IMG/VR virus record: IMGVR_UViG_3300042860_001172
Coordinates: 1-24,741 of that record
DNA: 24,741 bases
Direction: 5' to 3' (one strand)
Source: a virus
Position 1 is the stretch's first letter. Each line of letters begins with the position of its first letter. Below the pieces are notes generated by a model. The model was not told the origin of the DNA and searched no databases. It was given only the letters and a program-made list of their open reading frames with translations. The translations under genes were made by a program, and so were the position numbers. Below, in pieces: positions 2,765 through 21,307 of the stretch.

Positions 2765-2786
2765 TGCGCGAAAGGTGCGCGAATGG
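2765..2786 (+). repeat. Right arm-type repeat unit overlapping the integrase start
   Basis: Two TGCGCGAA octamers start at 2765 and 2776, and the unit ends with the integrase ATG (2783-2785). A further inverted copy (TTCGCGCA) is at 2733-2740. Binding here would cover the integrase translation start and leader, which suggests self-regulation. This is inferred from position only. Confidence 0.65.
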
Positions 2787-3895
2787 CAAAGCAGTGGATC
2801 GCTGATCGAAAGGTGCCGGGCCTTGGCCTGATGGTGCTGCCGTCAGGCGTGCGCACCTGGTATCTGCGCTACCGGGAGCCGAGCGGCAAGCAGCAGCACC
2901 ACCGCATCGGCCGGGCCGACTCGGTGAACGTCACCACCGCGCGCGAGCAGGCCCACAAGATCCTTGCGGCCGTCGCCACCGGCCAGGCACCCACCAGCGC
3001 CCGCCAGGAGCGCCGCAGGGCGCCGACCGTTGCTCAGCTGCTGGAGCGCATCAAGCGCGAGCACTGGCGCAAGCTGAGGCCTGGCAGCGTGGTGAACAAC
3101 GAGCTGATCTGGCGCCGCCACCTGCTGCCCGAGTTTGGCGCCTTGAAGGTGTCAGAGCTCCAGCAGCGCCACGTGGCGGACTGGTTCCACCGCGCCAGCC
3201 TCGAGCGGCCGGTGCGTGCCAATCGCTGCCTGGAGGTGCTTAGCAAGGCGATGAATCTGGCCGAGCTGTGGGAGCTGCGGCCCGCCGGTTCCAACCCTTG
3301 CGTGCGGCTCAATGCCAACAGCGAACGCAAGCGCCGGCGATACCTGACCAGGGAGGAGCTCAAGCGGCTGCTGGCCGCATTGGACACGTTCGCCGAGGCC
3401 GGTGTGCGGTGGCGGTTTGCGCAGCTGATCCGGCTGCTGCTGGTCACCGGCTGCCGCGTGCGGGAGGTGATGTGCGCGCGATGGGACTGGCTCGATCTCG
3501 ATGCAGCGGTGCTGCTGGTGCCGGCCGAGGCCCACAAGACCGGACAGGATGGCAACGATCGCAAAGTGCATCTACCACCCGCGGCCGTTCAGATCCTACG
3601 AGAGCTGCGGCAGCGGTCCAACAGCGCCTGGGTGATCGCCGGCGATGATGACAGCCACCTGGTCGGCTACTGGCGGATGTGGGACGACCTGCTGGCCGCG
3701 GCCGAGATCCGCAACCTGCGGGTGCATGACCTGCGCCACAACTTCGCCAGCCTCGGTGTGAGCGCCGGGCTGAGCCTGCCGCAGATCGGCGGCCTGCTGG
3801 GCCATGCCAGCCCGCAGACCACCCAGCGGTATGCGCACCTGATCGACGAGGCTGCAGCGGCCGCCGCGGCCAAGGTGGCGGCGCTGGTGGGCTAG
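2783..3895 (+). CDS. int: Tyrosine-family site-specific integrase
   Basis: This 370-aa protein is a phage integrase. Residues 1-75 look like an arm-binding/DUF4102-like N-domain (GLGLMVLPSGVRTWYLRY). Residues 80-175 are the SAM-like core-binding domain, and about 185-370 the catalytic domain. Catalytic residues are visible: R225 in TGCRVREV, a basic residue around K252/K261, H315 and R318 in HDLRHNFAS, H341 in LLGHAS, and the nucleophile Y350 in TTQRYAHL. It should cut and rejoin attP and a host tRNA attB. ATG 2783 is the natural start, with AAAGGT a little upstream. It reads toward the late operon and its TAG overlaps the stop of the dCTP deaminase-like gene. Confidence 0.95.
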   Translation: MAKQWIADRKVPGLGLMVLPSGVRTWYLRYREPSGKQQHHRIGRADSVNVTTAREQAHKILAAVATGQAPTSARQERRRAPTVAQLLERIKREHWRKLRPGSVVNNELIWRRHLLPEFGALKVSELQQRHVADWFHRASLERPVRANRCLEVLSKAMNLAELWELRPAGSNPCVRLNANSERKRRRYLTREELKRLLAALDTFAEAGVRWRFAQLIRLLLVTGCRVREVMCARWDWLDLDAAVLLVPAEAHKTGQDGNDRKVHLPPAAVQILRELRQRSNSAWVIAGDDDSHLVGYWRMWDDLLAAAEIRNLRVHDLRHNFASLGVSAGLSLPQIGGLLGHASPQTTQRYAHLIDEAAAAAAAKVAALVG

Positions 3896-4407
3896 CCCTT
3901 GCTGGCGGTGACGGCTGCGTCCTGGTTGTAGCGGCCGGTGACCGCATAGCTGCGCGCCGGGATGCCCTCCATCTTGTGGAAGACCATCTGCCCGATCTTC
4001 ATGCCGGGCCATAGCGCGATCGGGTGCATCCGCCGCGCGTTCTGCAGCTCCAGCGTCAACCGGCTGCCATGCCACCCTGGATCGCAGTAGCCGGCCAGCA
4101 GGTGCTCCAGGCCCTCGCGGGCGCGGCTGGACTTGAGCACGAACTGCGCGGCGATGAAGTCCGGCAGGTTGAAGATCTCGCGCGTCTCCGCCAGGCAGAA
4201 CTCACCCGGCTGCAGCCAGTAGGGATCCTCGGCCGTGTGGCCGCTGATGCCATGGATCTGCAGCTCGGGGCTCTCAGCCACCTCGATCATGATCCGATCG
4301 CCCAGCAGCACGTCGATGCTGGCCGGGTTCACCAGCTCAGGATCGAACGGCAGCACCATCGCGTGCTTCTTGCACAGGTGGTGAATCTCGTAGTCGGGGA
4401 GAGGCAC
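3892..4407 (-). CDS. dcd: dCTP deaminase / dUTPase-family protein
   Basis: With a GTG start at 4405-4407 this is 171 aa, near the usual family length. The N-terminus (LPDYEIHHL, then LPFDPELVNPASIDVLLGDR at 19-38) matches dCTP deaminase. It is followed by KSSRAREGLEHL (92-103) and DPGWHGSRLTLELQN (109-123); E120 is in the position of the general-base Glu. The trimeric family turns dCTP into dUTP, and some members also or only hydrolyse dUTP, keeping uracil out of DNA and feeding dTTP synthesis. A longer frame upstream overlaps the endolysin gene and is an artefact. It is the last gene of the late operon, 7 bases after the endolysin stop, which is an odd place for a nucleotide-metabolism gene. 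Confidence 0.88.
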   Translation of the reverse strand: MPLPDYEIHHLCKKHAMVLPFDPELVNPASIDVLLGDRIMIEVAESPELQIHGISGHTAEDPYWLQPGEFCLAETREIFNLPDFIAAQFVLKSSRAREGLEHLLAGYCDPGWHGSRLTLELQNARRMHPIALWPGMKIGQMVFHKMEGIPARSYAVTGRYNQDAAVTASKG

Positions 4408-4414
4408 GCGGTCG

Positions 4415-5497
4415 TCAGTAAATCCAACGCACCCTAGGGCTGCCCTGACGAATGCCAAGGTGCACAAAGCCCTTGGGTGCGCCGTAGCCCAGCGAGTAGG
4501 GCCACTGCCTGTCGCACCAGTCCTGCACCGCGTTGATGTCCACGCCGTCAATGAGGAAATCCACCGCACCGACGCCAGGCGCGTCGTAGAGGTGCTCCGA
4601 CTGGCTGGCGCCACCCACGGCCCGGTTGATGGCTGCGGGCCGGTAGCCGGAGGTGATGATCACCGCCTTACCGTCGAACCGTGCGCGCGCCTTCTCGAGG
4701 AACTGCGCCAGCTTCACCGCGGTGTCGCACTGATGCTGGTGATCAAAGCGCCGCGCCTCCTGGTTCAGCGCGAACTCGCCGTAGGTGATGTGCGGCGTGA
4801 TCTTGAAGCTGAAGGGCGACTCGGGCGTGAACGTCGCCTCGATCGGCCCGGTGGTCTGCCGCTCTCGGCCCCACAGATCGCCCTCAGCGATGCGGCGCCG
4901 CTTCAGGCCGGCCTCCACGTTGGTGCCGGGGTTGCGGTAGAGCAGCAGGGCATCAGGCACGCCGGGCCAGTCCTTCTCGCGCAACCGCTTGCTGATGGTC
5001 TCGAAGCCCTTGGCGCCGTAGAACCCGCTGCCGAGGTTGTAGGCGAAGCTGATCAGCGCGCACTTCTGATGGTCCGCCATCTCGCCCCAGTGCGGCACCG
5101 TGGCGCGCAGTTTGTCAGCGATCCGATCCACCTCCTGCCGCAGCAGCATGTCGGCTTCGACGGCGTTGATCCTGTCGCCGCGCTTGACCGGCCGGCCGTC
5201 GCCGTAGCGGGTGGTGCCGTAGCCGATCGTCCACGGATCACCACCGCTGGCCGGGTCAGGGTAGGCGTCGAGGTGGCACCCCTCGAACTGCTGGATCATG
5301 CTCAGCGCCGCGCTGAGGTCTGCCTGTTTGCCGCCCTGGCTCCAGGTGTTGAACCACGCCCGATCACGCCGCATGGCCGCGGCGTAGCCGTTCACCGCCA
5401 GGTCTTGCTCCAGCTGGCCGATGGCCGCGGCCTGATGCGGCGCGCCCTTGAAGTAGCGGAACAGCTGCTCCAGTGTGATCGGGGCGGCGTTGGCCAT
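4415..5497 (-). CDS. Modular endolysin: GH24 lysozyme plus M15 peptidase
   Basis: This 360-aa protein joins two cell-wall enzymes. Residues 1-60 form an N-terminal segment of unknown role (LFRYFKGAPHQAAAIGQLE). Residues about 62-215 are a T4-type lysozyme (GH24): E72 in QQFEG, D81 in DAYPDP and T90 in WTIGYGTT occupy the catalytic positions. Residues about 230-350 are an M15-type carboxypeptidase: TSGYRP at 282-287, H302 and D313 in the zinc motif, and H346 in GFVHLG. It should cut both glycan strands and peptide stems of murein at the end of infection. No signal peptide is seen, so export needs a holin. It starts 3 bases after the 49-aa membrane-protein stop. Confidence 0.92.
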   Translation of the reverse strand: MANAAPITLEQLFRYFKGAPHQAAAIGQLEQDLAVNGYAAAMRRDRAWFNTWSQGGKQADLSAALSMIQQFEGCHLDAYPDPASGGDPWTIGYGTTRYGDGRPVKRGDRINAVEADMLLRQEVDRIADKLRATVPHWGEMADHQKCALISFAYNLGSGFYGAKGFETISKRLREKDWPGVPDALLLYRNPGTNVEAGLKRRRIAEGDLWGRERQTTGPIEATFTPESPFSFKITPHITYGEFALNQEARRFDHQHQCDTAVKLAQFLEKARARFDGKAVIITSGYRPAAINRAVGGASQSEHLYDAPGVGAVDFLIDGVDINAVQDWCDRQWPYSLGYGAPKGFVHLGIRQGSPRVRWIY

Positions 5498-7056: not shown

Positions 7057-9081
7057 TTATGCGAGTTGCTGTTTGAGCTGCTCAACTTCGGCCGAGAGCT
7101 GCTGCACGGCCTTGATCAGCGGTGCAATCAGCTCCTCGTAGCCAATAGAGAGAACGTCTTCGCCGCCTTTGAGGCTGTGGTCTTGATAGCCGCCAAAATC
7201 GACCCCGGTCGCATCACAGGCCGCTTTCACCTCTTGGGCGATTAAGCCGTGATGAAAACGTGAACGCTTCTTGGAGCCATCGTGCTGAAGGTTGTCGAGG
7301 GCATTTGCCTCGCGCCACTCTTGCAGGGCTTGGCTATGAGCAGCACGCTCTTCTTTCGTCGCATCATCTGCCGGCGGTTCAGGGGGTGTTGAACGATAGT
7401 CGTCCCGCAAGTCCCAGCGGAAATCGACCGGGCGCAGAGCGTTGATGAAATCGAGGCCAAGTGCCGTGTCTTGAATGTCTGCCTTATCTCTGGCGTCTGA
7501 ACGGTTTTGGACGGTGCCGTAGACGTAGGTGGTCGTGCTGGCGTTGCCTAGCTGAATCTGGTTGCTTCCTGTAACGGTCGCCTGATAGCCGAACATCGAC
7601 GTGTTGGTATAGGCAGCGCCGCCGACTGTTCCAGTGCCAACGGCAGTGTTGTAATCGCCAGTCGTGACTGCGCTGAGCGACTGCTCGCCAATAGCAGTGT
7701 TTCCAGCACCAGTTGTATTCAACTGTGCAGCAAACCGACCAATGAAAACGTTGTTGAAGCCAGTGCTTAGGACGCTTCCCGAGCTGACGCCAATCGAGAC
7801 GTTTTGATAGCCGGTGGTAATGTTTCCTGATGCGTTATTGCCAACGGCAACGTTGTTGCTTCCGGTGATAGCAGTGCCAGACCCAACCATGGCATCGTTG
7901 CCAATGGCGGTGTTGCCGCTGCCGGTGGTGATCCCGCTGCCGGCTCGCCTGCCAACAGCGACCGCGGATGCGCCCGTCGTCGCCGACCCAAGGGCTGCTG
8001 AACCAATAGCGATGTTGTAGAGACCGGTAGAGGATGGTGCCGACAGCGCCTGGTGACCGATGGCAACACTGTCGTTGCCGGTGTGCTGCTGGCCGGCCTG
8101 CGTGCCGATTGCAATGGTCCGGTTGACTCCGGTAGAAACGCCAATCGCTTGATCGCCAATGGCAACATTGTCGTCTCCAGTCGTGAGCGATGTAAGCGCT
8201 CCGTTTCCAATGGCAGTGTTGTCGCTGCCAGTTGAGTATTGGAGAGCCTGAACGCCGATCGCGGTGTTGTAGTTGCCCGTGACGTTTGTATAAAGAGCAA
8301 ACGGCCCTATTGCAGTATTATAAAAACCGGTTGTGTTTGAGTAGAGGGCCTGCGCTCCGATGGCAGTTTGACGGCGTCCCGTTGTATTTGACGTGAGCGC
8401 ATAATTGCCAAACGCAGTGTTGAAGTTGCCTGATGCCCATGTCAGCGTTGAAGAGCTGTGCTGCTTGGGAATGTAAGTGTTAGCCGCAAGTGCCCCGTAG
8501 CCGTAGGCCTCGTTAGCTGGTTGATCGTCAGTGCTGGCGGGTGCAAGGGTCAGCAGGCCGTTGCGAACGCCCCAGCCATTTGGGACAGTCGTCACCCGGT
8601 AGCTCTTGCCTGCTAAGTCAATAGAGGTGTTTGAGAACGCGGCACGCACGGCAGCCATTGCCGAGGTGTCATCGGTGCTGTTGTTACCAACTGCGCCAAA
8701 ATCAGCAGGACTTACTGTGTCCTTGAGCTTGGCATCTACCGTGCGAGCACTGCCGCCAGACTGAGTGAAACTCAGTTTGCTGGCGACGATGCCTGCGCTG
8801 GCATTGACATCGGCGTTGACGATGCTGCCGCTGCCCGCTGGGATCAGACCCAAGTTCGCGGTGTCCAGCTGGCCGATCGTGAGCCAGGCGTTGTTGGCGC
8901 TGTTGCGCTGCTTCAGCGTTGCCGGGCTGCTGCTGGTGTCAACCCAGTATTGATAGGCGAAGGTGGTGCTCGGGGCCGATGCGCCGCTGTTGCCGCTGAC
9001 GATCGCGGCCAGCGCGTTGTTCAGGTCAGCACGGAACGCCTGGCCGGACTGGTTGGCGATGTTGTAGTCGTGCTGAGCCAT
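7057..9081 (-). CDS. Tail fibre with YadA-like repeats and S74 self-cleaving chaperone
   Basis: This 674-aa fibre begins MAQHDYNIANQSGQAFRADL, a phage N-terminal attachment-type segment. VSPADFGAVGNNSTDDTSAM (123-142) matches the start of pectate-lyase-like tailspikes. About 16 short repeats, (N)TAIG..AL...TTG, at 218-495 resemble the heads of trimeric autotransporter adhesins. The C-terminus (about 525-674) is an intramolecular chaperone peptidase S74: S528 in NRSDARDK with K533 as the likely Ser-Lys pair, GLIAQEV near 612-618 and a final coiled coil (IKAVQQLSAEVEQLKQQLA). In this family the chaperone folds the trimer and then cuts itself off before S528. It overlaps J by TGATG. GC is markedly lower than in its neighbours. 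Confidence 0.9.
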   Translation of the reverse strand: MAQHDYNIANQSGQAFRADLNNALAAIVSGNSGASAPSTTFAYQYWVDTSSSPATLKQRNSANNAWLTIGQLDTANLGLIPAGSGSIVNADVNASAGIVASKLSFTQSGGSARTVDAKLKDTVSPADFGAVGNNSTDDTSAMAAVRAAFSNTSIDLAGKSYRVTTVPNGWGVRNGLLTLAPASTDDQPANEAYGYGALAANTYIPKQHSSSTLTWASGNFNTAFGNYALTSNTTGRRQTAIGAQALYSNTTGFYNTAIGPFALYTNVTGNYNTAIGVQALQYSTGSDNTAIGNGALTSLTTGDDNVAIGDQAIGVSTGVNRTIAIGTQAGQQHTGNDSVAIGHQALSAPSSTGLYNIAIGSAALGSATTGASAVAVGRRAGSGITTGSGNTAIGNDAMVGSGTAITGSNNVAVGNNASGNITTGYQNVSIGVSSGSVLSTGFNNVFIGRFAAQLNTTGAGNTAIGEQSLSAVTTGDYNTAVGTGTVGGAAYTNTSMFGYQATVTGSNQIQLGNASTTTYVYGTVQNRSDARDKADIQDTALGLDFINALRPVDFRWDLRDDYRSTPPEPPADDATKEERAAHSQALQEWREANALDNLQHDGSKKRSRFHHGLIAQEVKAACDATGVDFGGYQDHSLKGGEDVLSIGYEELIAPLIKAVQQLSAEVEQLKQQLA
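7597..8430 (-). repeat. About 16 YadA-head-like repeats in the S74 fibre
   Basis: Units of roughly 16-20 residues keep the core TAIG or VAIG, a hydrophobic/Ala position and a closing TTG/STG. DNA units share GCCAATGGC-type words. Such repeats form a left-handed beta-roll in trimeric adhesins; copy number is likely to vary between relatives. Confidence 0.8.
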
Positions 9082-12000
9082 CAGACGATCTCCCGGCCGT
9101 AGCCGATTGCAGTGTAGGTGAACTGGCGGCTCACGGCGGTCCCGCCACTGTTCCTAAAGGTTACCTGTAATCCCGTGCGCGTCACGGAGCCGATCGTGAA
9201 GTAGTCAGCGGTGCCCATGTCGTAGCCCGTCACTCCAATGCTAGGGGGTTGGTAGAAAGCCTCGGCGAAGGTCACCGAATAGGTGCCGGCGCCACTGGTC
9301 AGCGTGGCCGACTGCTCGGTGCGCTGCTGCAGCTCCACCATGCAGCCGAGCTCGTCGATCAGGATGTTGACGTTGGGGTCGTTGCTGGTGGCGATCGTCT
9401 TGAACTGGAAGCCGCGGCCGCGCACGATCGCGTTGGCGAACTCGCGCCAGGTGCTCCAGGTGGGGGTGCCGGCCGGGTTGTCAGTGGTGCTGCGCACGTA
9501 GAGGCGCGCGTTCACCGAGTCGATGTTGCCGTCGTCGATCTCGGACCAGCTGTCGATCAGCTCGACCTTCTCATCCCAGAGCCCGGTCAGCAGGATCGCG
9601 CGGGTCAGGAAGCGCCGCTGCAAGTTGATGTCGAACACGCCGCCCATGTCCAACGTCGAGCCGAACTCGTACTCGCCGTATTCCGGTGGCAGCGGGCTGT
9701 CGATCGTGGTCAGGCCGTCCCAGTTGCCGGCCTGGCCTTCGTTGAGGATCTGGTCGCCATCCTCAAGCAGCAGGGCATCACCGTCTTCCTGCGCCAGGTT
9801 GTCGTTGCCAGCGCCGGGCGGGGCGAGGTCATCAACCAGCGGGCCGGTGCTGATCACCAGGCCGTCCAGCTCCTCGTTGTAGAACATGTCCACGACGTTG
9901 CCCGAGAACGGCGGCGTCTCCTGATCTTCCGCGTAGGTCTGCACCAGCAGGCGCGGCAGCGGCGTCGGCAGGTCGGCCACGATCAGAGTGGCGTTGGGAG
10001 ACCGGCGCCCCCCGTCATCCTCGAACTTGAGCAGGTAGGTGCCCTCAAGCAGCGGCACCTGCTTCTGGGTCTGGTTGCCGGAAGCGGCCGGCACGATCTC
10101 GACGGTGTCTTCCCAGATGGCGCCGACCAAGAGCGGCGTGTGGCGGATCAGCACCTTGCCGCCGATCTTGACGTCGAGCTCGGTTGAGGCCGTCCAGCTG
10201 ATGATCGCGCTGGCCTGGTCGATCGGCACCAGCGAGACGCCGGTCACATCAGCCGGCGAGGCCGTCTTGCCGAAGACGTTGAATGTGAGCTTGGCCGGCA
10301 ACACCGACGAGCGCAGCCCGGCGTTGACGCTGTAGACCTCGATCTCGTAGCGGCCTGGCGTGGTGTCGAAGATCTCGAAATCAGGCCGCTGCTGCGTGGA
10401 CGTTGACCAGTTGCCGTTCTGCAGCCGCCAGCGGTAGCGGTACTGGTTGACGCCGACCACCGGCTGCCAGCTCACGACCAGCTTGGACAGCACCCGGCCG
10501 TTGCTCTCGTAGAGCGCCTCAACGGCCTGCAGGTTGATGGGTGCTTCGGGGATGACGTTGAGGTCGGTGATGTCGCGCTGCGCCAGCGGCCGGCCGCGCT
10601 CGATGTAGTCGTACTTCGAGGCGTTGTAGGCGAGCGCCGTGATCTGGTACTGCGCCTGATCCTGCTCGGCCACGCTGAGCACCCGCCAGGTCGAGGCCTG
10701 GATGTTGGAGGTCTCGTAGACCCAGATGCTGTTCGCGTTCGGAGCAGACGGCAGCGCCGATGTGAGCGTGACCGTGGTTCCGACGATGCTGGCCACGCCG
10801 CGGCTCTGCACCGTGCCGTCGGACAGGATCACCGAAAGAGTGCCGCCTGATGGCGATAGGTCGGTGGCGTTGTCCACCGTGATCGTGGTGGTGGTTGCGG
10901 CTGCAATCCGGCCGCCGCGTCGAGCACCGGCGCGCATCGGGTCGGAGATGTTGATCACCTGGCCGGGGCGCACCAGCACGCCGGCGTCGATCGAAGCGGT
11001 GAACGTCACCACCTCGGATTCGTTCTGCTCGGAGTAGAGCAGCCATTCGCCGATGCGCGAAGCCTGCCCGCGGGAGGTGCAGGCAAAGGCCGACACCTCG
11101 GTGGTCACCACGCCGTACTTGGCGATTGCGGTCTGATCCTCGACAACCTCGTAGGCAATGTCGCGCAGGCTCAGGTCGAGGTAGCTGACCACTGCCACGG
11201 TCGGGCGTGTCTTGAGGCTGCCGCCCTGGTAGCTGAACCCGTCATCAGAGACGTTGGCCAGCGTGAACAGGTAGGCCGGGTCCGACGGCTTGTCCTGGCT
11301 GATGGTCAGCGCGCCGGTGCTCCAGTAGGGCATCGCCCGGAAGGTGGAGCACAGATCGTTGATGAGCTTGTAGGCCTCCTCGGCGGTCTGGATGTTGACG
11401 TTGCAGGAGAAGCGCGGCTCGGTGCCGCCAAAGCCGTTGGGCACCAGCTCGGAGGCGTACTGGCTCGCGGCATAGAACGCCCACTTGTCGAGCTGCGCGG
11501 CCTGGATGTGATCGCCCAAGCCGTAGCGGGTCGAGGTGAGCAGATCCCACAGGATCCAGGCGGGGTCTGAACACCACTGCGCAGCGCCGAAGCTGCCGTT
11601 CCAGATGCCGGCGTAGATCAACCGGCCGGTGGCCGCGTCCACCGTGGCGTTGTTCGGGATCCGAACCTTGATGCCGCGCACCAGGTAGGTGCGCGCCGGG
11701 ATCGAGTTGAACTGCTCGGCATCCACCCGCACCGCCACCAATGCGCTGTTGGGGTAGCGCAGCTTCGCGTAGGTGATCTCGGTGAAGCTTGACCAGCTGA
11801 AGGCATTGATCAGCTTTGCGCTGTTGCTATCCGCCGTGATCCGCGTCACCCGGATGTTCACCGGGAAGGCGCCTGACAGACTCACCAGGTAGTCGCGCTG
11901 ATACTGATCACCCGTGCGGCCAGCAATCGTGTCGTCGATCACGGTGCCGTAGCCGCCGCCGTTGTACTGCACGGCAATCTGCAGGCGCACATCGGTGCCC

Positions 12001-12869
12001 TCGATGTCGCCCTTGTCAGTGAACAGCTGCAGCGCTGGCACGGTGATCGTCACGCGCGCGGCGTTCACCGTGGTGTCGGTGATGCTGCGCACCACAGGCG
12101 TGGCCTGCTGCACCGTGACGTTGACGCCAACCTCGTTCTCAACGTCGGCAGCGATCGGCACGTAGCTCTGGTTCTGCGTGCCGTTGCGCGTGTAGACGAG
12201 AATGTTCTGGAAGTTGTAGCTGCCATCCGGGTTCTGCAGCGGCGTGTTGTCGATGAAGACCGACTTGTAGCCGTCTTTCAGGCCCTCGATCTCGCCTTCG
12301 CTGATGAGATCCACCAGGTTGGCGTATTGCGTCGAGTTGAGGCTGTCGGCTGCCTCAGTTGGCGTGTAGGTTTCGCCGCCGCCGCCGCCTTTGCCGCCGC
12401 CGCCACCACCGCCTGCGCCAGCAATGCCGAGGCCGAGGCCGGCGTTGTGAACCCGGATCCCACCGGCGATGAAGGTGTGATGCCCCTCGACGGTCAGGTT
12501 GTAGACGGTGCCGACGCAGAACTCAGCGCGGTCCACGATCGGGCGCAGGTGGCCGTTCTCATCCACCAGGCAATCGTCGGGGCCGAGCGTGTCGATCTCC
12601 ACGAAGGCGTTGAACTGGTTCAGCACCCAGTGGTTGGCCGTGGCATCCAAGACGGCACCGCCCCAGAGGCGGTAGCGGTTCACCCGCTCGCCTTCGTGCA
12701 CGTGCACCTTGAGGATCTTGGCGTGATGCAGCTTGCCGCGATCGTCGAAGCTGACCACTAGGTCGCCAGGCTGCAGCGCCTCGATCGGACGCTGCCCGTC
12801 AGGCGTGCGAATCAGCGTGTGCCCGAGAAAGCATCCGCCACCACCACCAGCACCGACGATCCTGCTCAT
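9081..12869 (-). CDS. J: Tail tip attachment protein J with an embedded Hint domain
   Basis: This 1262-aa protein is a lambda gpJ homologue: the central hub of the tail tip that contacts the host receptor. From about residue 165 it follows gpJ closely (EAADSLNSTQYANLVDLISE, YPNSALVAVRVDAEQF, ELVPNGFGGTEPRFSCNV, TSRGQASRIGEWL). Two fibronectin-III-like segments lie around 775-855 and 870-960. The last 200 residues are a beta-rich tip domain (SVTFAEAFYQPPSIGVTGYD) seen in many phage tail proteins. Uniquely, residues 13-142 are an intein-like Hint domain between glycine runs, listed separately. ATG overlaps the gpI stop (ATGA). The gene is very GC-rich, unlike the fibre gene that follows. Confidence 0.93.
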   Translation of the reverse strand: MSRIVGAGGGGGCFLGHTLIRTPDGQRPIEALQPGDLVVSFDDRGKLHHAKILKVHVHEGERVNRYRLWGGAVLDATANHWVLNQFNAFVEIDTLGPDDCLVDENGHLRPIVDRAEFCVGTVYNLTVEGHHTFIAGGIRVHNAGLGLGIAGAGGGGGGGKGGGGGETYTPTEAADSLNSTQYANLVDLISEGEIEGLKDGYKSVFIDNTPLQNPDGSYNFQNILVYTRNGTQNQSYVPIAADVENEVGVNVTVQQATPVVRSITDTTVNAARVTITVPALQLFTDKGDIEGTDVRLQIAVQYNGGGYGTVIDDTIAGRTGDQYQRDYLVSLSGAFPVNIRVTRITADSNSAKLINAFSWSSFTEITYAKLRYPNSALVAVRVDAEQFNSIPARTYLVRGIKVRIPNNATVDAATGRLIYAGIWNGSFGAAQWCSDPAWILWDLLTSTRYGLGDHIQAAQLDKWAFYAASQYASELVPNGFGGTEPRFSCNVNIQTAEEAYKLINDLCSTFRAMPYWSTGALTISQDKPSDPAYLFTLANVSDDGFSYQGGSLKTRPTVAVVSYLDLSLRDIAYEVVEDQTAIAKYGVVTTEVSAFACTSRGQASRIGEWLLYSEQNESEVVTFTASIDAGVLVRPGQVINISDPMRAGARRGGRIAAATTTTITVDNATDLSPSGGTLSVILSDGTVQSRGVASIVGTTVTLTSALPSAPNANSIWVYETSNIQASTWRVLSVAEQDQAQYQITALAYNASKYDYIERGRPLAQRDITDLNVIPEAPINLQAVEALYESNGRVLSKLVVSWQPVVGVNQYRYRWRLQNGNWSTSTQQRPDFEIFDTTPGRYEIEVYSVNAGLRSSVLPAKLTFNVFGKTASPADVTGVSLVPIDQASAIISWTASTELDVKIGGKVLIRHTPLLVGAIWEDTVEIVPAASGNQTQKQVPLLEGTYLLKFEDDGGRRSPNATLIVADLPTPLPRLLVQTYAEDQETPPFSGNVVDMFYNEELDGLVISTGPLVDDLAPPGAGNDNLAQEDGDALLLEDGDQILNEGQAGNWDGLTTIDSPLPPEYGEYEFGSTLDMGGVFDINLQRRFLTRAILLTGLWDEKVELIDSWSEIDDGNIDSVNARLYVRSTTDNPAGTPTWSTWREFANAIVRGRGFQFKTIATSNDPNVNILIDELGCMVELQQRTEQSATLTSGAGTYSVTFAEAFYQPPSIGVTGYDMGTADYFTIGSVTRTGLQVTFRNSGGTAVSRQFTYTAIGYGREIV
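12444..12833 (-). other. Hint (intein-like, BIL-type) domain inside J
   Basis: Residues 13-142 of J have the Hint fold signature. Cys13 starts block A (CFLGHTLIRTPDGQRPIEAL and QPGDLVVS). T77-x-x-H80 in DATANHW fits block B. VYNLTVEGHHTF and the ending VHN (141-142) fit blocks F and G. There is no homing-endonuclease insert. The residue after Asn142 is Ala, not Cys/Ser/Thr, so standard splicing is unlikely; bacterial intein-like domains use this arrangement for cleavage or alternative splicing. Gly runs on both sides (residues 7-12 and 152-165) make flexible junctions. Activity is inferred, not shown. Confidence 0.85.
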
Positions 12870-13441: not shown

Positions 13442-14166
13442 CACGCCAGCCCTAGCCTCCCTGCATCGTAATGGCGAAGCCTGCGCCCGGTGCATTTCAT
13501 CAGCCAGCCGCCGTAGAGGTCACGGCTGCTGAGCCGGCCGCGGATGTGATGGAGCACCAGCTGGTCGCCGATGTAGATGCCGACATGGTTCAGGCCCGGC
13601 CCGCTGATGCTCATCAGCACCGCATCGCCCGGTTGCAGCTCATCGTCTTCGTTGAGCTCGCGGAATCCGGCATCGCGCCAGAACCGATCGAACAGCGGCT
13701 CGGCCTCGAACTGCTCCGGCGTCAGTGGGCGCTCCCAGTCCGGCAGCTGCAGGCCTTGCTCGGCGTACCAGTCACGCGTCAGCGTCCAGCAGTCGGTGAG
13801 CCCCCACACCCATTCGCGACCGATCAGGGGCGCCTTGTAACCGGTGGGACGCAGCTCGGGACTCCATGCCTCGGTCTTCGGGTTGACGATCCACCAGGGG
13901 AGGCCGGTGCGCTCGATCGCCACCAGATCGGCTTGGCTGGGCTGCGGTGCAGTGCGCGGGTGGCTGTGAACCACCGCCATGATTTCGCCGGCATCCTCGG
14001 CCGCGGCGTAGTCGATCGGGTCGAGGATGAACTGCTCGACGCCGGCCGCCAGGTTGCGGCAGGGCCAGTAACGCTCGCGGCCCTTGACCACCACCAGCAG
14101 GCCGCAAGCCTCTCGGGGATCCTCGGCCTGGGCGTGCTCGAGTGCTGCTGTGCGCCAGTCGGTCAT
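13441..14166 (-). CDS. K: Tail tip protein K: JAMM and NlpC/P60 peptidases
   Basis: The start ATG 14164-14166 overlaps the HNH stop (ATGA) and gives 241 aa; the longer frame upstream is an Arg/Pro-rich shadow of the HNH gene. Residues 1-95 are a JAMM/Mov34 metalloprotease with E19, the HSHP motif H67/H69, S77 and D80 all present. Residues 115-235 are an NlpC/P60 cysteine peptidase with C126 (TDCWTL) and H194 (NHVGIYIG). gpK proteins with this layout act in tail tip assembly and may cut peptidoglycan stems during DNA entry. Both catalytic sets look intact. Confidence 0.9.
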
Positions 14167-14801
14167 GCCGCCCTCCGCTGCCGCCGCGATGGCATCGTCA
14201 GGGCCAGCGATGGGGCCATGCCGGAGTTCAGCCTGTTGATCACGGTAGACGGCTTGACACCTAGACGCCGGCACCATTCCGACATGTGCAGGACTTGGCC
14301 TTCGTGCTGGATCATGCGGTTGCTGCGCTTGTTGGCGCCCTGCTCTGCCGGTGTGGCCCACCTGCAGTTCTCTGGGCAGTAATCGCCGTTTGGGTCGATG
14401 CGGTCCAGTGAGCAACCCTCTGGCTTCTCTGCCATGTCTTCAGCAAAGTTCCGAACATCCATCCAGCGTTCGCAGACTTTTACTCCTCTGCCTCCGTACA
14501 GAGGAAAGTCCTTTGCTTCTGAATTGGTGCAGCGACGAATCATGCCCTGCCATACCTTCATGCCGGAGTAGCGGCTGAGGCCATGCGTCAGAAGCACCGG
14601 CGGCTTGCATTCGCGTTTTAGGCAGCCACAAGACTTCGTGCTGCCTGATTTGAGAACAGAGGTGAGCAAAGGCTTCACGACACCGCAATCGCACTGACAT
14701 TCCCAAGCAAGCTGCCGCCCGTAGATGCGCGTCTCGCTTTTGCCCAGCACGACAAGCCGCCCAAAACGCTGGCCTGTAAGGTCGATTGACTTGGCACCCA
14801 T
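14163..14801 (-). CDS. HNH endonuclease of the homing type, lodged between L and K
   Basis: ATG 14799-14801 has AGAGGAA about 11 bases upstream and gives 212 aa, [20 protein letters not shown]. Residues about 20-60 contain Cys pairs (CQCDCG, CGCLK) likely to hold zinc. The nuclease core follows ([41 protein letters not shown]) with Asp, Arg and Asn at the HNH positions. The C-terminus has a small helix-turn-helix-like DNA-binding part ([19 protein letters not shown]). In lambda-type phages L and K are adjacent, so this is an intruder. GC is about half in places (30 of 60 bases at 14461-14520), lower than L or K. It is likely a selfish free-standing endonuclease. Confidence 0.85.
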
Positions 14802-14829
14802 GAAATAAAAAGTTCCTCTGCCGATCATC

Positions 14830-15552
14830 TTACGTGAAGAACGTACCCACACCCGGATAGCTTCCGAACGGCAGCTCGGCAGTGGTGCCGAATCGTGCCT
14901 TGCAGCTGCTCAGCCGCTTGCCGCACACGTCAGCCGCAAGGGTGGCCACGGATTGATCGTTCTCGTTGAAGTAGCTGGTGCCCACGTAGCCGCACTCGGC
15001 TGAGCGGTACTTCCACTGGCAGATGTTGCTGATGCACTGGCGCTTTGGAGCCCGCACGCCGGCGAGATCGAAGGAAGCCGCCAGCTCGAACTCCACCACG
15101 TCGCGCGTCTCGGTGGACTTGCGGTCCACGTAGTAGATCTCACGCGGGAACTCGGCCGTCGGGTCCGGCGTGCCGTAGGGGTTCACGCTGCCGGGGAAGT
15201 TCACCGCGTCGAGGTAGCGGGCCAACGTGCGGATGCGTGTCACCTTGGCGCCCGAGAGGCCGTCAGGCAGGCTCAGCAGCAGCGCTGTGATGGTGCCCAA
15301 CACGTTACTGCAGCGGATTTTCGGCCGCGGCAGCGTGCCCTTGCCCTCATAGGTGAAGCCATCAGCCTCAACCGGAAACCGCAGATAGTTGTTGCCAGCC
15401 CAGACCACTTCGCCGTTGGCGTTGAGGTTGACGCCGGCGTGGAAGCGGTAGGTGTCGTTCACGCCGTGCTGCAGCGTGTTCAGCTCCAGCACGAACAGCT
15501 CGATGACAGCGCTGGGCGCAATCGCCTGAAGATCTGAGACGGGAACTGCCAT
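14830..15552 (-). CDS. L: Minor tail tip protein L (Fe-S cluster family)
   Basis: This 240-aa protein is a gpL homologue. The N-domain (1-160) holds VIELFVLELNTLQHGVN and WAGNNYLRFPVEADGF. The C-domain holds the conserved cysteines C173, C178, C187, C210 and C217 (RQCISNICQWKYRSAECGY, CGKRLSSCKARFG), followed by LPFGSYPG. In lambda gpL the C-domain binds a [4Fe-4S] cluster at the tail tip, and the same cysteine pattern is visible here. It starts just after gene M and is followed by 28 bases before the HNH start. Confidence 0.92.
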   Translation of the reverse strand: MAVPVSDLQAIAPSAVIELFVLELNTLQHGVNDTYRFHAGVNLNANGEVVWAGNNYLRFPVEADGFTYEGKGTLPRPKIRCSNVLGTITALLLSLPDGLSGAKVTRIRTLARYLDAVNFPGSVNPYGTPDPTAEFPREIYYVDRKSTETRDVVEFELAASFDLAGVRAPKRQCISNICQWKYRSAECGYVGTSYFNENDQSVATLAADVCGKRLSSCKARFGTTAELPFGSYPGVGTFFT

Positions 15553-15893: not shown

Positions 15894-18800
15894 TTACGCC
15901 GCCAGGAGGCCGCCAGGCCGCTTCTGCTTGACCAATTCTGCCTGCACCGCCTGCGAGATCGCACGGCCCAGCTGCTCGCCGCGGCCTGCGTCGCCCTGCA
16001 CCTGGCTGCCCGAAGCGTCCACGTTCACCACCACGTTGGTGCCACCGCCGCCGCCCTTCATCGCCACGGGGATCCGCCGGCCATCAGGCAGGGGCACGTA
16101 GGCCTCGGGCATCGAGCCCTCGCCGAACATGGCCAGCTGCGGGCTGTTGGCGATGCCGCCGCCGGCGTACTTGCGCAGGGGCAGCGGGCCGTCGCTGGTC
16201 ATGATGCCGCCGTCGGCGAAGCCGAACGCCGAGGTGATGCCCTTCACGATCGGCGCCACCACCATGGTCTGCGCGATCTGCCGTGCGATGTCCTTCAGCA
16301 CGCCAGCCGCAATGCTGCGCAGGCTGTCGCCCCAGTTGTCGGTGCCGTCGATCAGCAGGTCGATCGCGCTGCCGATGCCGTTGCCGATCGAGTTGGCGAT
16401 GCCTTGCACCAGCTGCTTCTTCTCCTCGTAGGCCAGCTTGAGGCGCTCGAGCGCCTGCTCCTCGGTGTTGAGGCCATCGAGGATGCCGGGCTGAGAAGCC
16501 AGTCGGCCCTGCGTGGCCTTCAGGATGGCCTCGAGATTCGCACGCTGCTCGGCAGTGATGTCCTTGCTTTGCAGGTCCAGCACCAGCTGCTGCTGCAGCG
16601 CCTGCAGGCTGGCTGTTTCGGCCGTTGCGGCCCGCTCACGCTCTACGGTCTGCCGGGCCAGCTCAGGGCTCAGCCCACTGCGCTGCAGCTCCAGCAGCCG
16701 CTCGAAATCTTCCCGCTGCTCACGCACCGACTTGCGCTGTTGATCCAGCTGGCTGGTGATGGTGCCGAGCTCGGCCTGGCGGCTGTTGACCAGCTCACCG
16801 GCAGCCGCGGCCAGGCTGGCCGAGCGATTGGCGCCAGATGCTGCATCGAGCCGCCTGCCTGCCGCATCGATGCCGCTCATGCTGACGCCAGAAGCCGCTG
16901 CAGCAGCCGCACCGGGCCGGCCGATCAGCTGCCGTGCGCTGCCCACCGGACGGGCCGCAGAGCCGCCCTGCAGGTGCAGGAGCCGCATCCGGCCCTCGGG
17001 GGTGTCGATCTCCACCGCGTAGCCGCCGGCGCCGGTGAAGCCCAGATCACGCAGCAGGCTCGCGCCGCCCTTGAGGCTGACGCCGCTGCCGCTGGGCGTG
17101 CCGAAGTCGATGCCGGCATGGAAGTTGCGGCCGAACAGGCTGCGCGGGCCGTAGCCGCTGGTGACGCCAAAGCTAGAGGGGCTGCGGCCGTTCACGCTCA
17201 GGTAGCGATCGGCATCAGCAGCCGTGATCCGCCGGCCATCAGCCCAGCGCGCGTCAAGGTGCGGGCCGGTGCTCTGTCCCGTGCTGCCGGTGCGGGCGAT
17301 GATGCCGCCCGGTGCCATCGGAACGCCCATGGCACCAGCAGCGCCGCGCGCACCTTCGCGCATCTTGGCCGCCATCTTCTCGGCGCCGTCCACCAAGATG
17401 TCCCGGATCCCGCGCGCCACGTTCAGCTTGTAATCCTCGATCGTGCGCTCCAGCTGCACCTTCCGATCGGTGGCGCTTTGCTCGATCTGGATCTTCTGCT
17501 CGGTGAAGCGGCGGGTGGCTTCGTTCAGCCGCGCCTGCGTCTCCAGCGCATCGGTGCCAAGCCCAGCGCCGCGCAGCCGCTGCCGTTCGCGTTCAAACGC
17601 CGCATCCTGCTCCTGCGCCGCAATCCGCCGGCGGGTTTCGGCGGTGTCGCGCTCCAACTGCAGGCGCTGGTCGCCTAGGTCACGCTCAAGGTCGGCCGCG
17701 CGGCGGATCGACTGCTCGCGGAAGTCCGCCAGCCGCTTCTCCATGTCTTCGCGGATCTTCAGCTGATCGGCCAGGTTCTTCTTGGCCTTCTCCATCGCTG
17801 ACCGCTCTGCGGCAGATGCGCGCTCGCGGGCCGCCCGTTCCTGCGCCTCCCGCTGGCTGGCGCTGACCTGATCCGCCGGCCGCGTCTGCTGCTGCAGCAG
17901 CTCCTGGAAGATCTCCTGCTCGCGCTTCAGCAGGAACTGGTTTTTCGAGCCCTGCTGGAAGAAGGAGAACACCCCGAACTTGTCGTTGGTCTCGCGCGCC
18001 GCCTGTTGGTTGGCCTGCACCCGCAGCTGCGCACGCCGGCCTGCTTCGCCGTTGCCGGTGATACCGCCGAGCACGTCGCTGGCTTCCTTCAGTGCCCCGG
18101 TGAAGTTGCGCAGCAGGCTGATCGCCGTAGGCCCGAAGATCCGCGCCAGCTCGATGCCGAGCTCCTGCGTGGCAACCTGGAAATCCTTGATCGCCTGCTG
18201 GCCGGTCTGGAACTGTTCGTTGAGCTTGCCCAGCTGGGTGTCGTTGAGCTTGCCCAGCGCGCGCAGCACCACGTCGGTGGTGACCTTGCCCTCGGCAGCC
18301 AGATCTTTCAGCTCGCCGATCGTGACGCCGAGCTCTTTCGCGATCGCCTGCGCTGCCAGCGGCGCCTGCTCGCGGATCGCGCGCAGCTCTTCACCCTGCA
18401 GCACGCCGGAGGCCAGGCCCTGCTTCAGCTGGATCAGCGCGTTGCTGGTCTCCTGCGCCGTGGCGCCGCTGTTGCGGGCCGCAGCAGAGAAACCGATGAA
18501 GGCCTTCTCAAGCTCGGCCAGCGTGATGCCAGTGGGGCGCAGCGAGGCGTAGAGGCTGGCGAAGCTCTGCTCCGCTTCGGTGTTGCTCAGCCGCAGCGTC
18601 TTGGCAATGCGGTCGGTGGCTGCCAGCGCCGCGTTGTATTCGCCAAACTCATTGGCGAGCGCGCGCAGGCGCACCCGCGAGCTTTCTGCGTCCAGACCCA
18701 CCTGCCCGATGCCCTGCACGCCGCGCCTGGCCAGATCAGCGCCCTGCACCGCCAAAGCGCCCGCGACGCCACCTGCAGCGCCCGCCAGCAAGGCCCCGCC

Positions 18801-19136
18801 GCGTGATAGGCCGCCCGATGACGATGCAGTGCTCTGGAAGCGCTGCAGCCGCCGCTCAGCGGCCTCGATGTCATTGGTCAGCAGCTTGAACTTCCGGCTG
18901 CCAAACTCAGCGTTATCGCGCAGCGCCTTCAGCGCGCCGACAGTCCGCTGCAGACCCGCGACGGTGTTGTTCGAGGCGCTGCCGAGCGCCTTGGTGGCGG
19001 TGTAGAGCTGATCAAGCGATCGCTTGCTGACGTTGCTCTGCTGGCTCAGCCCTTGCAGGTTGCGCTTCAGCTGGTCGAGCCCCGTGCCCTCCAGCTTTGC
19101 GGTGAACTTGATCGCCGTGTCGAGGGTCATCGCCAT
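15894..19136 (-). CDS. H: Tape measure protein with a LytM-like segment
   Basis: This 1080-aa protein sets tail length. Residues 1-105 are helical (LDQLKRNLQGLSQQ). A small Gly/Ala hydrophobic patch lies at 115-135. Residues 150-300 match the tape-measure N-domain family (SGVLQGEELRAIREQAPLAA, LGVTIGELKDLAAEGKVTTD). Long charged coiled coils cover 400-600 and 780-960. A LytM/M23-like segment at about 606-735 is described as a finding. The C-terminus (FADGGIMTSDG, FGEGSMPEAYVPLPDGRR) is the usual end. By the rough 1.5 angstrom per residue rule the tail would be about 160 nm; this is an estimate only. Confidence 0.93.
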   Translation of the reverse strand: MAMTLDTAIKFTAKLEGTGLDQLKRNLQGLSQQSNVSKRSLDQLYTATKALGSASNNTVAGLQRTVGALKALRDNAEFGSRKFKLLTNDIEAAERRLQRFQSTASSSGGLSRGGALLAGAAGGVAGALAVQGADLARRGVQGIGQVGLDAESSRVRLRALANEFGEYNAALAATDRIAKTLRLSNTEAEQSFASLYASLRPTGITLAELEKAFIGFSAAARNSGATAQETSNALIQLKQGLASGVLQGEELRAIREQAPLAAQAIAKELGVTIGELKDLAAEGKVTTDVVLRALGKLNDTQLGKLNEQFQTGQQAIKDFQVATQELGIELARIFGPTAISLLRNFTGALKEASDVLGGITGNGEAGRRAQLRVQANQQAARETNDKFGVFSFFQQGSKNQFLLKREQEIFQELLQQQTRPADQVSASQREAQERAARERASAAERSAMEKAKKNLADQLKIREDMEKRLADFREQSIRRAADLERDLGDQRLQLERDTAETRRRIAAQEQDAAFERERQRLRGAGLGTDALETQARLNEATRRFTEQKIQIEQSATDRKVQLERTIEDYKLNVARGIRDILVDGAEKMAAKMREGARGAAGAMGVPMAPGGIIARTGSTGQSTGPHLDARWADGRRITAADADRYLSVNGRSPSSFGVTSGYGPRSLFGRNFHAGIDFGTPSGSGVSLKGGASLLRDLGFTGAGGYAVEIDTPEGRMRLLHLQGGSAARPVGSARQLIGRPGAAAAAASGVSMSGIDAAGRRLDAASGANRSASLAAAAGELVNSRQAELGTITSQLDQQRKSVREQREDFERLLELQRSGLSPELARQTVERERAATAETASLQALQQQLVLDLQSKDITAEQRANLEAILKATQGRLASQPGILDGLNTEEQALERLKLAYEEKKQLVQGIANSIGNGIGSAIDLLIDGTDNWGDSLRSIAAGVLKDIARQIAQTMVVAPIVKGITSAFGFADGGIMTSDGPLPLRKYAGGGIANSPQLAMFGEGSMPEAYVPLPDGRRIPVAMKGGGGGTNVVVNVDASGSQVQGDAGRGEQLGRAISQAVQAELVKQKRPGGLLAA

Positions 19137-19139
19137 GGC

Positions 19140-19804
19140 TCAGCCCTCCCGGTTCATCGCTGCCAGCGCCGCGCCTTCCATCACCTGCAGATCCTCCAGG
19201 AGCGCGCGCTGGTCTTGCACTGAGTACATCTTAAAGAGCCAGGCCAGCACCGAGTAATCGAGGCCGATGGCCCCGCCAGCACTGGTGCGCCATTGCGTCT
19301 GCACCCGGCACCACATGTCGATCGCGTCCCAGTTCTCCGGCCACACCTCGAACTCATCCCGCTCCGGCTCCTCGATGATCACGCCGAACGCGGCCGCGTC
19401 ATCGTCCAGCTGCTTGCCGCTGTCTTTCCCGCCGCCGGCCCAATGCTCGGCGGCGGCTATCAGTTTTTTCTCTTGCCCTTGCTGAGGCTGTCGAGCCAGC
19501 TGCTGACGACGGCCGCGGCCACCAGCGGCACGTTCAGCAGGTCGGCCTTGGCCTTCTCGCTGTAGGGCACCTCGCCGCCCTTGCCGTCCTGGATGCCGGA
19601 CCAGCCGACCAGCACCTGATCGCAGAGCTCATCGTCGGTCAGGTCGCCCGACTGGATCTGATCCCAGATCTCGCGGATCCGCGCCTGTGGCAGCCGCTTG
19701 AACTCGGCGTCGAAGGTCTGTTTGTCGAACCGGCCACCGTCGATGGGGAACTCGACGGTGACCGGCCAGGTGTACGACTCGCTCTGAGACAGAACGAATG
19801 CCAT
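19140..19804 (-). CDS. GT fusion tail assembly chaperone made by -1 frameshift
   Basis: The downstream frame (19140-19463, DUF1799-type) has no ATG or ribosome site. It continues gene G if ribosomes slip back one base on A-AAA-AAC at 19463-19469. The fusion is about 221 aa: all of G plus 107 residues beginning LIAAAEHWAGGG and including FEVWPENWDAIDMWCRVQTQ and TSAGGAIGLDYSVLAWLFKM. In lambda the same trick makes gpGT, which coats the tape measure and recruits tube protein, and neither G nor GT stays in the virion. The frame arithmetic fits -1 exactly. Confidence 0.9.
19429..19469 (-). promoter_or_regulatory. Programmed -1 ribosomal frameshift signal
   Basis: On the minus strand the slippery heptamer A-AAA-AAC (19469 to 19463) is in the reading frame of G. 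It is followed by a 6-base spacer (TGATAG, 19462-19457) that contains the G stop. A perfect 9-bp stem comes next: CCGCCGCCG (19456-19448) pairs with CGGCGGCGG (19437-19429) around a 10-base loop. Heptamer, spacer length and GC-only stem all match known stimulated -1 signals. Confidence 0.92.
19460..19804 (-). CDS. G: Tail assembly chaperone G
   Basis: This 114-aa product begins MAFVLSQSESYTWPVTVEFP, preceded by a strong AGGAG site. It is acidic with a basic end (SLSKGKRKN), and its TGA at 19460-19462 follows the slippery sequence directly. Position between the tail tube and the tape measure, length, and the built-in frameshift identify it as the lambda gpG equivalent. It contains VEFPIDGGRFDKQTFDAEFK, typical of this chaperone family. 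Confidence 0.88.
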   Translation of the reverse strand: MAFVLSQSESYTWPVTVEFPIDGGRFDKQTFDAEFKRLPQARIREIWDQIQSGDLTDDELCDQVLVGWSGIQDGKGGEVPYSEKAKADLLNVPLVAAAVVSSWLDSLSKGKRKN

Positions 19805-19816
19805 GCAGGGCTCCTA

Positions 19817-20749
19817 TCAGGTGAAGGCCAGGCTGAACTCGTTGTTGCCGGCCGTGGTGGGCAGCGAAACGTAGGGGATGCTGAGCATCTGAACGCCGTC
19901 GCTTTCCGAATAGGTCGGCTGAGTCACGTCAGACTGGGGCGAGCTGAAGGTTACTCGGTTGCCGGCAGTCGTGCCATGCAGGAACGTCAGGTTGCCGGTG
20001 GTGCTACCAAGAGCATCCGTGAAGTAGTTCTTGGTGGCCAAGGTCACCGCCTCAATCATCACAGTGCCGGCAGGCTTGCGATCAGTCACAAGAACCTCCT
20101 TGGTGCAACCAATCAGCTCGCGATACACGATGTCATTCGCCAGGTTGAAGTCCACCGACATGAGGCAGCCGGAGTAGCTCATGAAGGAGAACGCCGATGT
20201 GTTACCGTCGCGGAAGATCAGCGGAGTGGCCTGCGCCGCATAAGTCACAGCCGGCTGTGCTGTATCCGTCGGGTTGTTGTAGATGCCGGTCATCTCAAAC
20301 TGCAGCGTCGGGATTTGACCGAGCTGGCAGTTCATCGTGAAGGTGCCACGGCAGCCAGTCAGAACATGCTGCACACCGTCCACGTTGTAGAGGATGGTGC
20401 AGCTGCTGAAGGCGCTGCTCACCGGCGCGTAGGTCACCGAAGTCGATGCCACGGTGGTCGCGGCAGTGCCACAGGCCAGCAGCAGCGGACCGAAGCGGGG
20501 CGCCGTGCCAGCAGTGCCGGAGCCGGCCATTTCCACCTCGCAGGAGATGCGCACGCGAGGGTTGGCAAGCAGCGCGTCGCTGTTGCCGTAGTAAGGGCGG
20601 ATCAGGTCGCGGGTCACCACATCCGACTCAAGCGGAGTGATTTCGAGGTTGCGAACCAGAACCGCGTCGGTGCCAGCAGGGGTGCTGTTGGTGCCGTAGG
20701 TGGCTTCAGTTTTCGCCAGGATCAGGCGTTTGCGGCTCAGGAGCGGCAT
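19817..20749 (-). CDS. Major tail tube protein
   Basis: This 310-aa protein begins MPLLSRKRLILAKTEATYGT and matches the phage tail tube family (PAGTDAVLVRNLEITPLESD, RDLIRPYYGNSDALLANPRV). Beta-rich Thr/Ser sequence follows to the end. It is the equivalent of lambda gpV: hexamer rings that stack around the tape measure. A GAGG-type site precedes ATG 20747-20749. It lies just before the G/GT genes, as expected. Its end CACCTGATAGGAG (double stop plus ribosome site) recurs after the capsid gene. Confidence 0.88.
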   Translation of the reverse strand: MPLLSRKRLILAKTEATYGTNSTPAGTDAVLVRNLEITPLESDVVTRDLIRPYYGNSDALLANPRVRISCEVEMAGSGTAGTAPRFGPLLLACGTAATTVASTSVTYAPVSSAFSSCTILYNVDGVQHVLTGCRGTFTMNCQLGQIPTLQFEMTGIYNNPTDTAQPAVTYAAQATPLIFRDGNTSAFSFMSYSGCLMSVDFNLANDIVYRELIGCTKEVLVTDRKPAGTVMIEAVTLATKNYFTDALGSTTGNLTFLHGTTAGNRVTFSSPQSDVTQPTYSESDGVQMLSIPYVSLPTTAGNNEFSLAFT

Positions 20750-20881: not shown

Positions 20882-21307
20882 TCAGCTCGCGAGATTTGTG
20901 ACAGAGGTCCGATACAGCACACGATAGTCGCACTGGATCTCACCGGCTGCGCCATCAGCCTCGGTGAAGACGAAGGTGACATTCGTGGGTTGAACGTCGA
21001 TCGCGTAGCCGCCCAGCGTCAGGTCGGCCATCAGCTTGCTGTGCAGGCTTTCGATGATCGGGTCGGCCTGCTGGTCCGGGATGGCCCCGCGCACGATCAC
21101 ACTGACCCGCACCGTCATCGACCAGTCGAGCGTTGGCAGGCTGGTGTTCTGCTGCGCCGTGTCGCTGATCGGCTCCACCACGATCGCCGGGCTCTCCTCA
21201 CGCGCGATTGGTTCCACCCGCGTGCGGTAGATCCGCGTGCCGACGCCCGTGGTGTCGGTAAGCGCCGTGCGGACGGCAGCCAGGATGGTCTCGCGGCGGG
21301 TTGTCAT
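20882..21307 (-). CDS. Tail terminator-like protein (gpU/minor tail family)
   Basis: This 141-aa protein begins MTTRRETILAAVRTALTDTT and continues VGTRIYRTRVEPIAREESPA, then an alpha/beta region (LDWSMTVRVSVIVRG, ESLHSKLMADLTLGGYAIDV). This layout is that of phage tail terminators, rings that stop tube growth and join the tail to the head. Position immediately upstream of the tube gene supports the call. The family is loosely conserved, so gpZ-like or head-tail roles remain possible. It starts in TGATG overlap with the fibre-like gene. Confidence 0.72.
   Translation of the reverse strand: MTTRRETILAAVRTALTDTTGVGTRIYRTRVEPIAREESPAIVVEPISDTAQQNTSLPTLDWSMTVRVSVIVRGAIPDQQADPIIESLHSKLMADLTLGGYAIDVQPTNVTFVFTEADGAAGEIQCDYRVLYRTSVTNLAS

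Follow-up and report, generated by a model that had tools for sequence, protein, structure and literature searches.

The 24,741-nucleotide stretch of DNA from a cyanophage-like virus analysed here (IMG/VR record IMGVR_UViG_3300042860_001172, positions 1 to 24,741), referred to below as the window, very probably carries a conserved programmed −1 frameshift of the lambda type that yields the tail assembly chaperones G and GT, as judged from comparison with related loci. The initial annotation had proposed a GT chaperone made by −1 slippage without giving a strand; the signal is found on the minus strand, and the comparative evidence supports the proposal. The genes concerned are the following.

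20882–21307, minus strand: tail terminator (phrog_4204, tail terminator, 4.8e-38)
19817–20749, minus strand: tail tube protein, the next gene upstream of G (PF18906, Phage_tube_2, 4.9e-23)
19460–19804, minus strand: zero-frame ORF G, putative tail assembly chaperone, 114 aa, ending R-K-N-stop
19140–19466, minus strand: T (DUF1799), the extension in the −1 frame; 107 residues follow the slip, then the stop
15894–19136, minus strand: tape measure protein, the next gene downstream (PF20155, TMP_3, 2.3e-34)

G and T, in this order, stand between the tail tube and the tape measure gene, the classic arrangement for a G/GT pair, and 3 nt separate the stop of T from the tape measure ATG. Among the PHROGs, G is matched by phrog_569 (1.8e-18) and by phrog_313, "Tail assembly chaperone" (5.5e-6). 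No Pfam match at E<1 was found for the window's own G (P0002), so its assignment as a probable tail assembly chaperone rests on the PHROGs and on its relatives, 12 of which, among the 21 aligned, match Pfam PF08748 (Phage_TAC_4, best 2e-37). The predicted fold of G (pLDDT 83.5) was searched against viral structures, where it matches models named "Tape measure chaperone" from Serratia phage Scapp and from Enterobacter phage Ec_L1. Searched against the PDB, the same fold gave no significant match and matched no solved structure of a tail assembly chaperone, and a sequence search of G and T against solved structures returned nothing meaningful. T reads KLIAAAEHWAGGG...MNREG in the −1 frame, with K-LIAAAEHW at the slip, and runs to the stop at 19142–19140. 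It matches PF08809 (DUF1799) at 4.3e-20, with 72.2 bits against a Pfam gathering cut-off of 26, and phrog_680 at 5e-32; the predicted model of the T domain is of moderate quality (pLDDT 77). A further family, phrog_17368 (213 positions), matches T in its last third and also matches several G relatives, which suggests a family whose entries are fusions. Both phrog_680 and phrog_569 carry the label "tail length tape measure protein".

The putative shift site at the end of G consists of three adjoining elements.

19463–19469, minus strand: slippery heptamer A_AAA_AAC, carried by 111 of 111 distinct relatives
19457–19462, minus strand: spacer TGATAG, 6 nt, with TGA directly 3' of the heptamer and then TAG
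19429–19456, minus strand: putative stimulatory hairpin, 9 GC pairs, two further pairs inside, then the loop

The 3' end of the G ORF reads GGC AAG AGA AAA AAC TGA TAG, and the heptamer, made up of the last two codons and one preceding base of the 114-aa ORF, stands in the X_XXY_YYZ phase relative to 19804–19460, as the initial annotation had stated. The 6-base spacer described there as holding the stop in fact holds two, the zero-frame TGA and then a TAG. The stem starts 6 nt 3' of the heptamer, and its arms, CCGCCGCCG (19456–19448) and CGGCGGCGG (19437–19429), form the GC-only 9-bp stem that had been noticed; RNA folding places two extra pairs inside it. The hairpin segment has a minimum free energy (MFE) of −25.4 kcal/mol (z −3.2 against dinucleotide shuffles), and none of 200 shuffles was equally stable. 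A rho-independent terminator was considered as the reason for the hairpin, and no terminator-like site was found. The downstream frame is in the −1 phase, as claimed, and stays open to 19142–19140. AAAAAAC occurs once in the whole window, at 19469–19463. Its presence alone proves nothing, since 30 of 100 shuffled windows contain one somewhere; what decided the matter was conservation, and a chance origin is ruled out by the frame and position kept in all 111 distinct loci.

The site would work as follows. Most ribosomes would end translation at TGA after the 114 aa of G. A few would be delayed by the GC hairpin, and perhaps also by the adjoining stop, and the two tRNAs on AAA and AAC would re-pair one base back, onto AAA AAA. 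The slipped ribosomes would then read CTG ATA GCC... into T, and their product, GT, would be about 221 aa long and have ...KGKRK(N/K)-LIAAAEHW at the fusion point. The whole of T would be reached by slippage only. By analogy with lambda, many G and few GT molecules would coat the tape measure protein, T would recruit tail tube subunits, and G and GT would leave before the tail is completed.

Related loci were collected by scanning viral contigs with T and with G, and three Synechococcus phages were added. Both halves were found at 111 distinct loci, which group into 46 clusters at 85% identity. Bacterial genomes yielded pattern matches to possible prophage relatives, none of which was confirmed. 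At each of the 111 loci the heptamer A_AAA_AAC is in phase, the distance to the zero-frame stop is 0 nt and T follows in the −1 phase. One G-based search pattern spanned the heptamer, but the T-based scan contained no peptide spanning it, so the invariance is not an artefact of the search. Neighbouring ORFs in different frames can also come about through a sequencing error or a mutation that splits one frame, T then being a relic. This has a vanishingly small probability here, since phase, heptamer and stop are identical at all 111 distinct loci and recur in other phage genomes, and protein-level constraint on T persists; the comparison already refutes it.

The shift site is conserved beyond the constraint of the protein, as a comparison of synonymous codons in the 46 clusters demonstrates. 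Elsewhere in the G genes of the cluster representatives, lysine is encoded by AAA in 24% of cases (76/312) and by AAG in 76%, asparagine is AAC in 80%, and codons ending in A make up 9.5%. From this codon usage the heptamer would be expected by codon choice alone in about 2% per locus. The product of the per-locus probabilities is too extreme a figure, because the clusters are related, but its direction is not in doubt.

A run of six A's is also a substrate for polymerase slippage, and one added A in the mRNA would give the same fusion. We consider it exceedingly improbable that RNA polymerase adds or removes an A here and so fuses the frames: the run is just six A's, it is never longer or shifted in the relatives, and the closing C and the preceding A are kept. 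In more distant homologues, the phages PS-1 and RcWaterboi, G_GGA_AAC directly before the stop replaces A_AAA_AAC and brings no long homopolymer with it. The finding of another canonical heptamer at the same spot argues strongly that slipperiness and not a particular sequence is kept, and argues against polymerase slippage. The conserved downstream hairpin, moreover, is a need of ribosomal slippage.

A stable hairpin is kept beyond codon constraint in the relatives. For the 50 nt 3' of the heptamer at 82 distinct loci, the mean MFE is −21.4 kcal/mol as compared with −13.4 kcal/mol for synonymous recodings that keep the −1 protein and the codon usage. The mean z is −2.4; 82% of the loci reach p<=0.05, and 99% beat the mean of their own recodings. 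The MFE minimum along the gene coincides exactly with the shift site. Among the representatives of the 46 clusters, most main stems start 5–8 nt after the heptamer and have 7–12 pairs, and in S-LBS1 this position is taken by a long stem that differs in sequence. Covariation in a fixed register is weak (a consensus of 6 pairs, 1 with a double-sided change) because the stem slides between lineages, hence the use of synonymous recoding instead. At some loci, namely L074, L082, L084, L118 and that of phage RobRod40, the hairpin is poor. The few members with weak hairpins suggest that the structure is a stimulator that varies; in lambda-type G/GT frameshifts generally, a downstream structure is not obligatory for every member.

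Could T be translated separately, from a start inside its frame or through reinitiation once G has ended, with the overlap being incidental? The initial annotation had stated that the downstream frame has no start of its own. This holds for the conserved N-terminal part, but further in there is an internal GTG (19382), 29 codons past the heptamer, which would yield most of the DUF1799 domain. The domain match begins at −1-frame residue 30, beside this first GTG at codon 29, and T is entered as a gene of its own in the public records of S-CBS1, S-CBS3, S-LBS1 and HK578; both observations speak for separate translation. However, the GTG is not accompanied by a Shine-Dalgarno-like motif, and the position of the first start after the slip varies by lineage, from 5 to 52 codons on. 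Nine of the 46 representatives lack a start within 35 codons after the slip, and a Shine-Dalgarno-like motif accompanies the T start within this distance in 7 of 46, as opposed to 36 of 43 tape measure starts. Starts so variable and so rarely preceded by such a motif make independent translation of T unlikely.

Upstream of the heptamer the same frame offers little: between the preceding stop and the heptamer it contains no ATG, GTG or TTG in 86 of 111 loci, and in close relatives with an identical junction (e.g. L007) none occurs in the 162 open nt. The residues directly after the slip (LIAAAEHW...) are kept as a −1-frame protein. Diversity by −1-frame codon position is 0.14/0.23/0.43 in the codons just after the slip, as for coding in that frame, and just upstream of the heptamer the most variable position is the zero-frame third. 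An internal start does not explain the invariant heptamer, and we regard it as very improbable; entry into T by ribosomal frameshifting is the preferred reading.

The only departure from the lambda picture concerns the stop codon, which lies 15 nt past the heptamer in lambda and 0 nt past it in the window's group. The zero distance holds in 111 of 111 relatives and also in T1, HK578, Kenya-K19, PHB17, RobRod40, PS-1 and RcWaterboi. At the exit from the heptamer, leucine is encoded by CTA in 14 of 46 clusters (30%) as compared with 32 of 477 leucine codons (6.7%) elsewhere in T (Fisher p 7e-6), and this rare CTA always preserves a stop. The codon choice at the abutting stop looks selected. A coupling of the shift to termination has been considered for this group of tail chaperones: if release is slow while the stop occupies the A site, the tRNA on AAA (E site) and the one on AAC (P site) could slip back. 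Such coupling is rather unlikely in our estimation, and the abutting stop could equally just end G at that residue. If the coupling were true, the G:GT ratio would respond to the supply of release factor.

G/GT frameshifting has been established experimentally in lambda and is widely conserved among long-tailed phages (PMC5009743). As in lambda gpG/gpGT, the window's pair lies between the tail tube and tape measure genes and carries, close to the 3' end of G, an X_XXY_YYZ heptamer for a −1 shift; the lambda heptamer is GGGAAAG, and the window's T domain is DUF1799. A parallel to the whole layout is coliphage T1 (AAP49960/AAP50000; Drexlerviridae), which has a homologous T domain, the same gene order, a downstream hairpin and A_AAA_AAC|TAA, the same heptamer directly before the zero-frame stop. 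Its record annotates the pair as "tape measure chaperone, frameshift product". T1 infects a different host, however, and its G is only about 25% identical to that of the window. A conserved frameshift in T1-like chaperones was also noted in the Stevie genome paper (PMC4319613). HK578, Kenya-K19 and PHB17 likewise have A_AAA_AAC|TAA with a hairpin, and RobRod40 shares the heptamer and stop, followed by a weak hairpin. A_AAA_AAC is also the g-t site of one haloarchaeal virus (PMC5009743). The initial annotation had called the design textbook. The word is slightly generous for a bacterial host, since in E. coli tests A_AAA_AAC induced less shifting than A_AAA_AAG (PMC5009743).

HK97 gp13/gp14 is also a chaperone pair between the tail tube and tape measure genes with an annotated −1 frameshift, but without a strict X_XXY_YYZ heptamer near the stop. 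Chaperone genes of the HK97-like cluster gave 6–7% frameshifting in reporter tests (PMC3711429). The same chaperone pair was seen in two Klebsiella phages, Shelby (L162 ~1340–1365; junction GCAAAAGTT TAA) and phiKp_7-1 (L161 ~1460–1475; junction CCAAAAGCAC TAA), both without an X_XXY_YYZ heptamer. The Shelby record annotates a frameshift fusion despite the missing heptamer, which points to a different or weaker shift site.

The nearest cultured relatives of the window's pair are the Synechococcus phages S-CBS1, S-CBS3 and S-LBS1, in which T is 38–46% and G 35–52% identical and the heptamer, stop and phase are as in the window, with a hairpin. The warning that annotation as two genes would hide the fusion proved well founded in these phages, whose records give two separate genes and no fusion. 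The S-LBS1 G (ATS93190.1; L003 2127–2507) carries the name of an ABC-transporter ATPase (FepC), evidently in error. In the collection of papers searched, none linked DUF1799 or S-CBS1 with frameshifting, and none reported a tail-chaperone frameshift for phages near the cyanobacterial ones.

Other genes in the window include a tyrosine integrase (2783–3895, plus strand), from which the virus is probably temperate, and the structural and lysis genes are mostly on the minus strand. The latter strand carries a small HNH endonuclease and a dCTP deaminase-like gene (1575–1880 and 3892–4614), a lysis protein with a phage lysozyme domain and a Peptidase M15 domain (4415–5497), and a tail-fibre-like protein (7057–9081) that contains many AIG-type repeats and has a self-cleaving chaperone domain, Peptidase_S74, at its C-terminus. 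The gpJ-like tail tip protein (9081–12869, minus strand) has a Hint/intein-like domain (residues ~12–145) preceding its FNIII-A_GpJ domain. The Hint/intein-like domain reads CFLGHT...VHN|A, and with Ala and not Cys, Ser or Thr after HN it may cleave rather than splice. A 229-aa ORF (14163–14852, minus strand) between the gpL-like and gpK-like genes overlaps the long gpK-like ORF (JAB + NlpC/P60), whose true start is probably later than listed. No Pfam or NCBIfam match was found for the 229-aa ORF, which by eye resembles a homing-endonuclease-type protein.

Frameshift signals of this kind have been familiar for a long time in phages, lambda and T1 among them, and the window's member is a new and unannotated one. 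It provides a well-supported candidate for tail-chaperone frameshifting in phages whose closest relatives in culture are phages of cyanobacteria, and ties DUF1799, phrog_680 and phrog_569 to the probable T and G halves of the chaperone. For a widespread group of aquatic viruses the annotation would thereby be corrected: the cultured Synechococcus siphophages carry the labels of two unrelated genes at this locus, and the same annotation would be given to at least 108 distinct loci from the environment.
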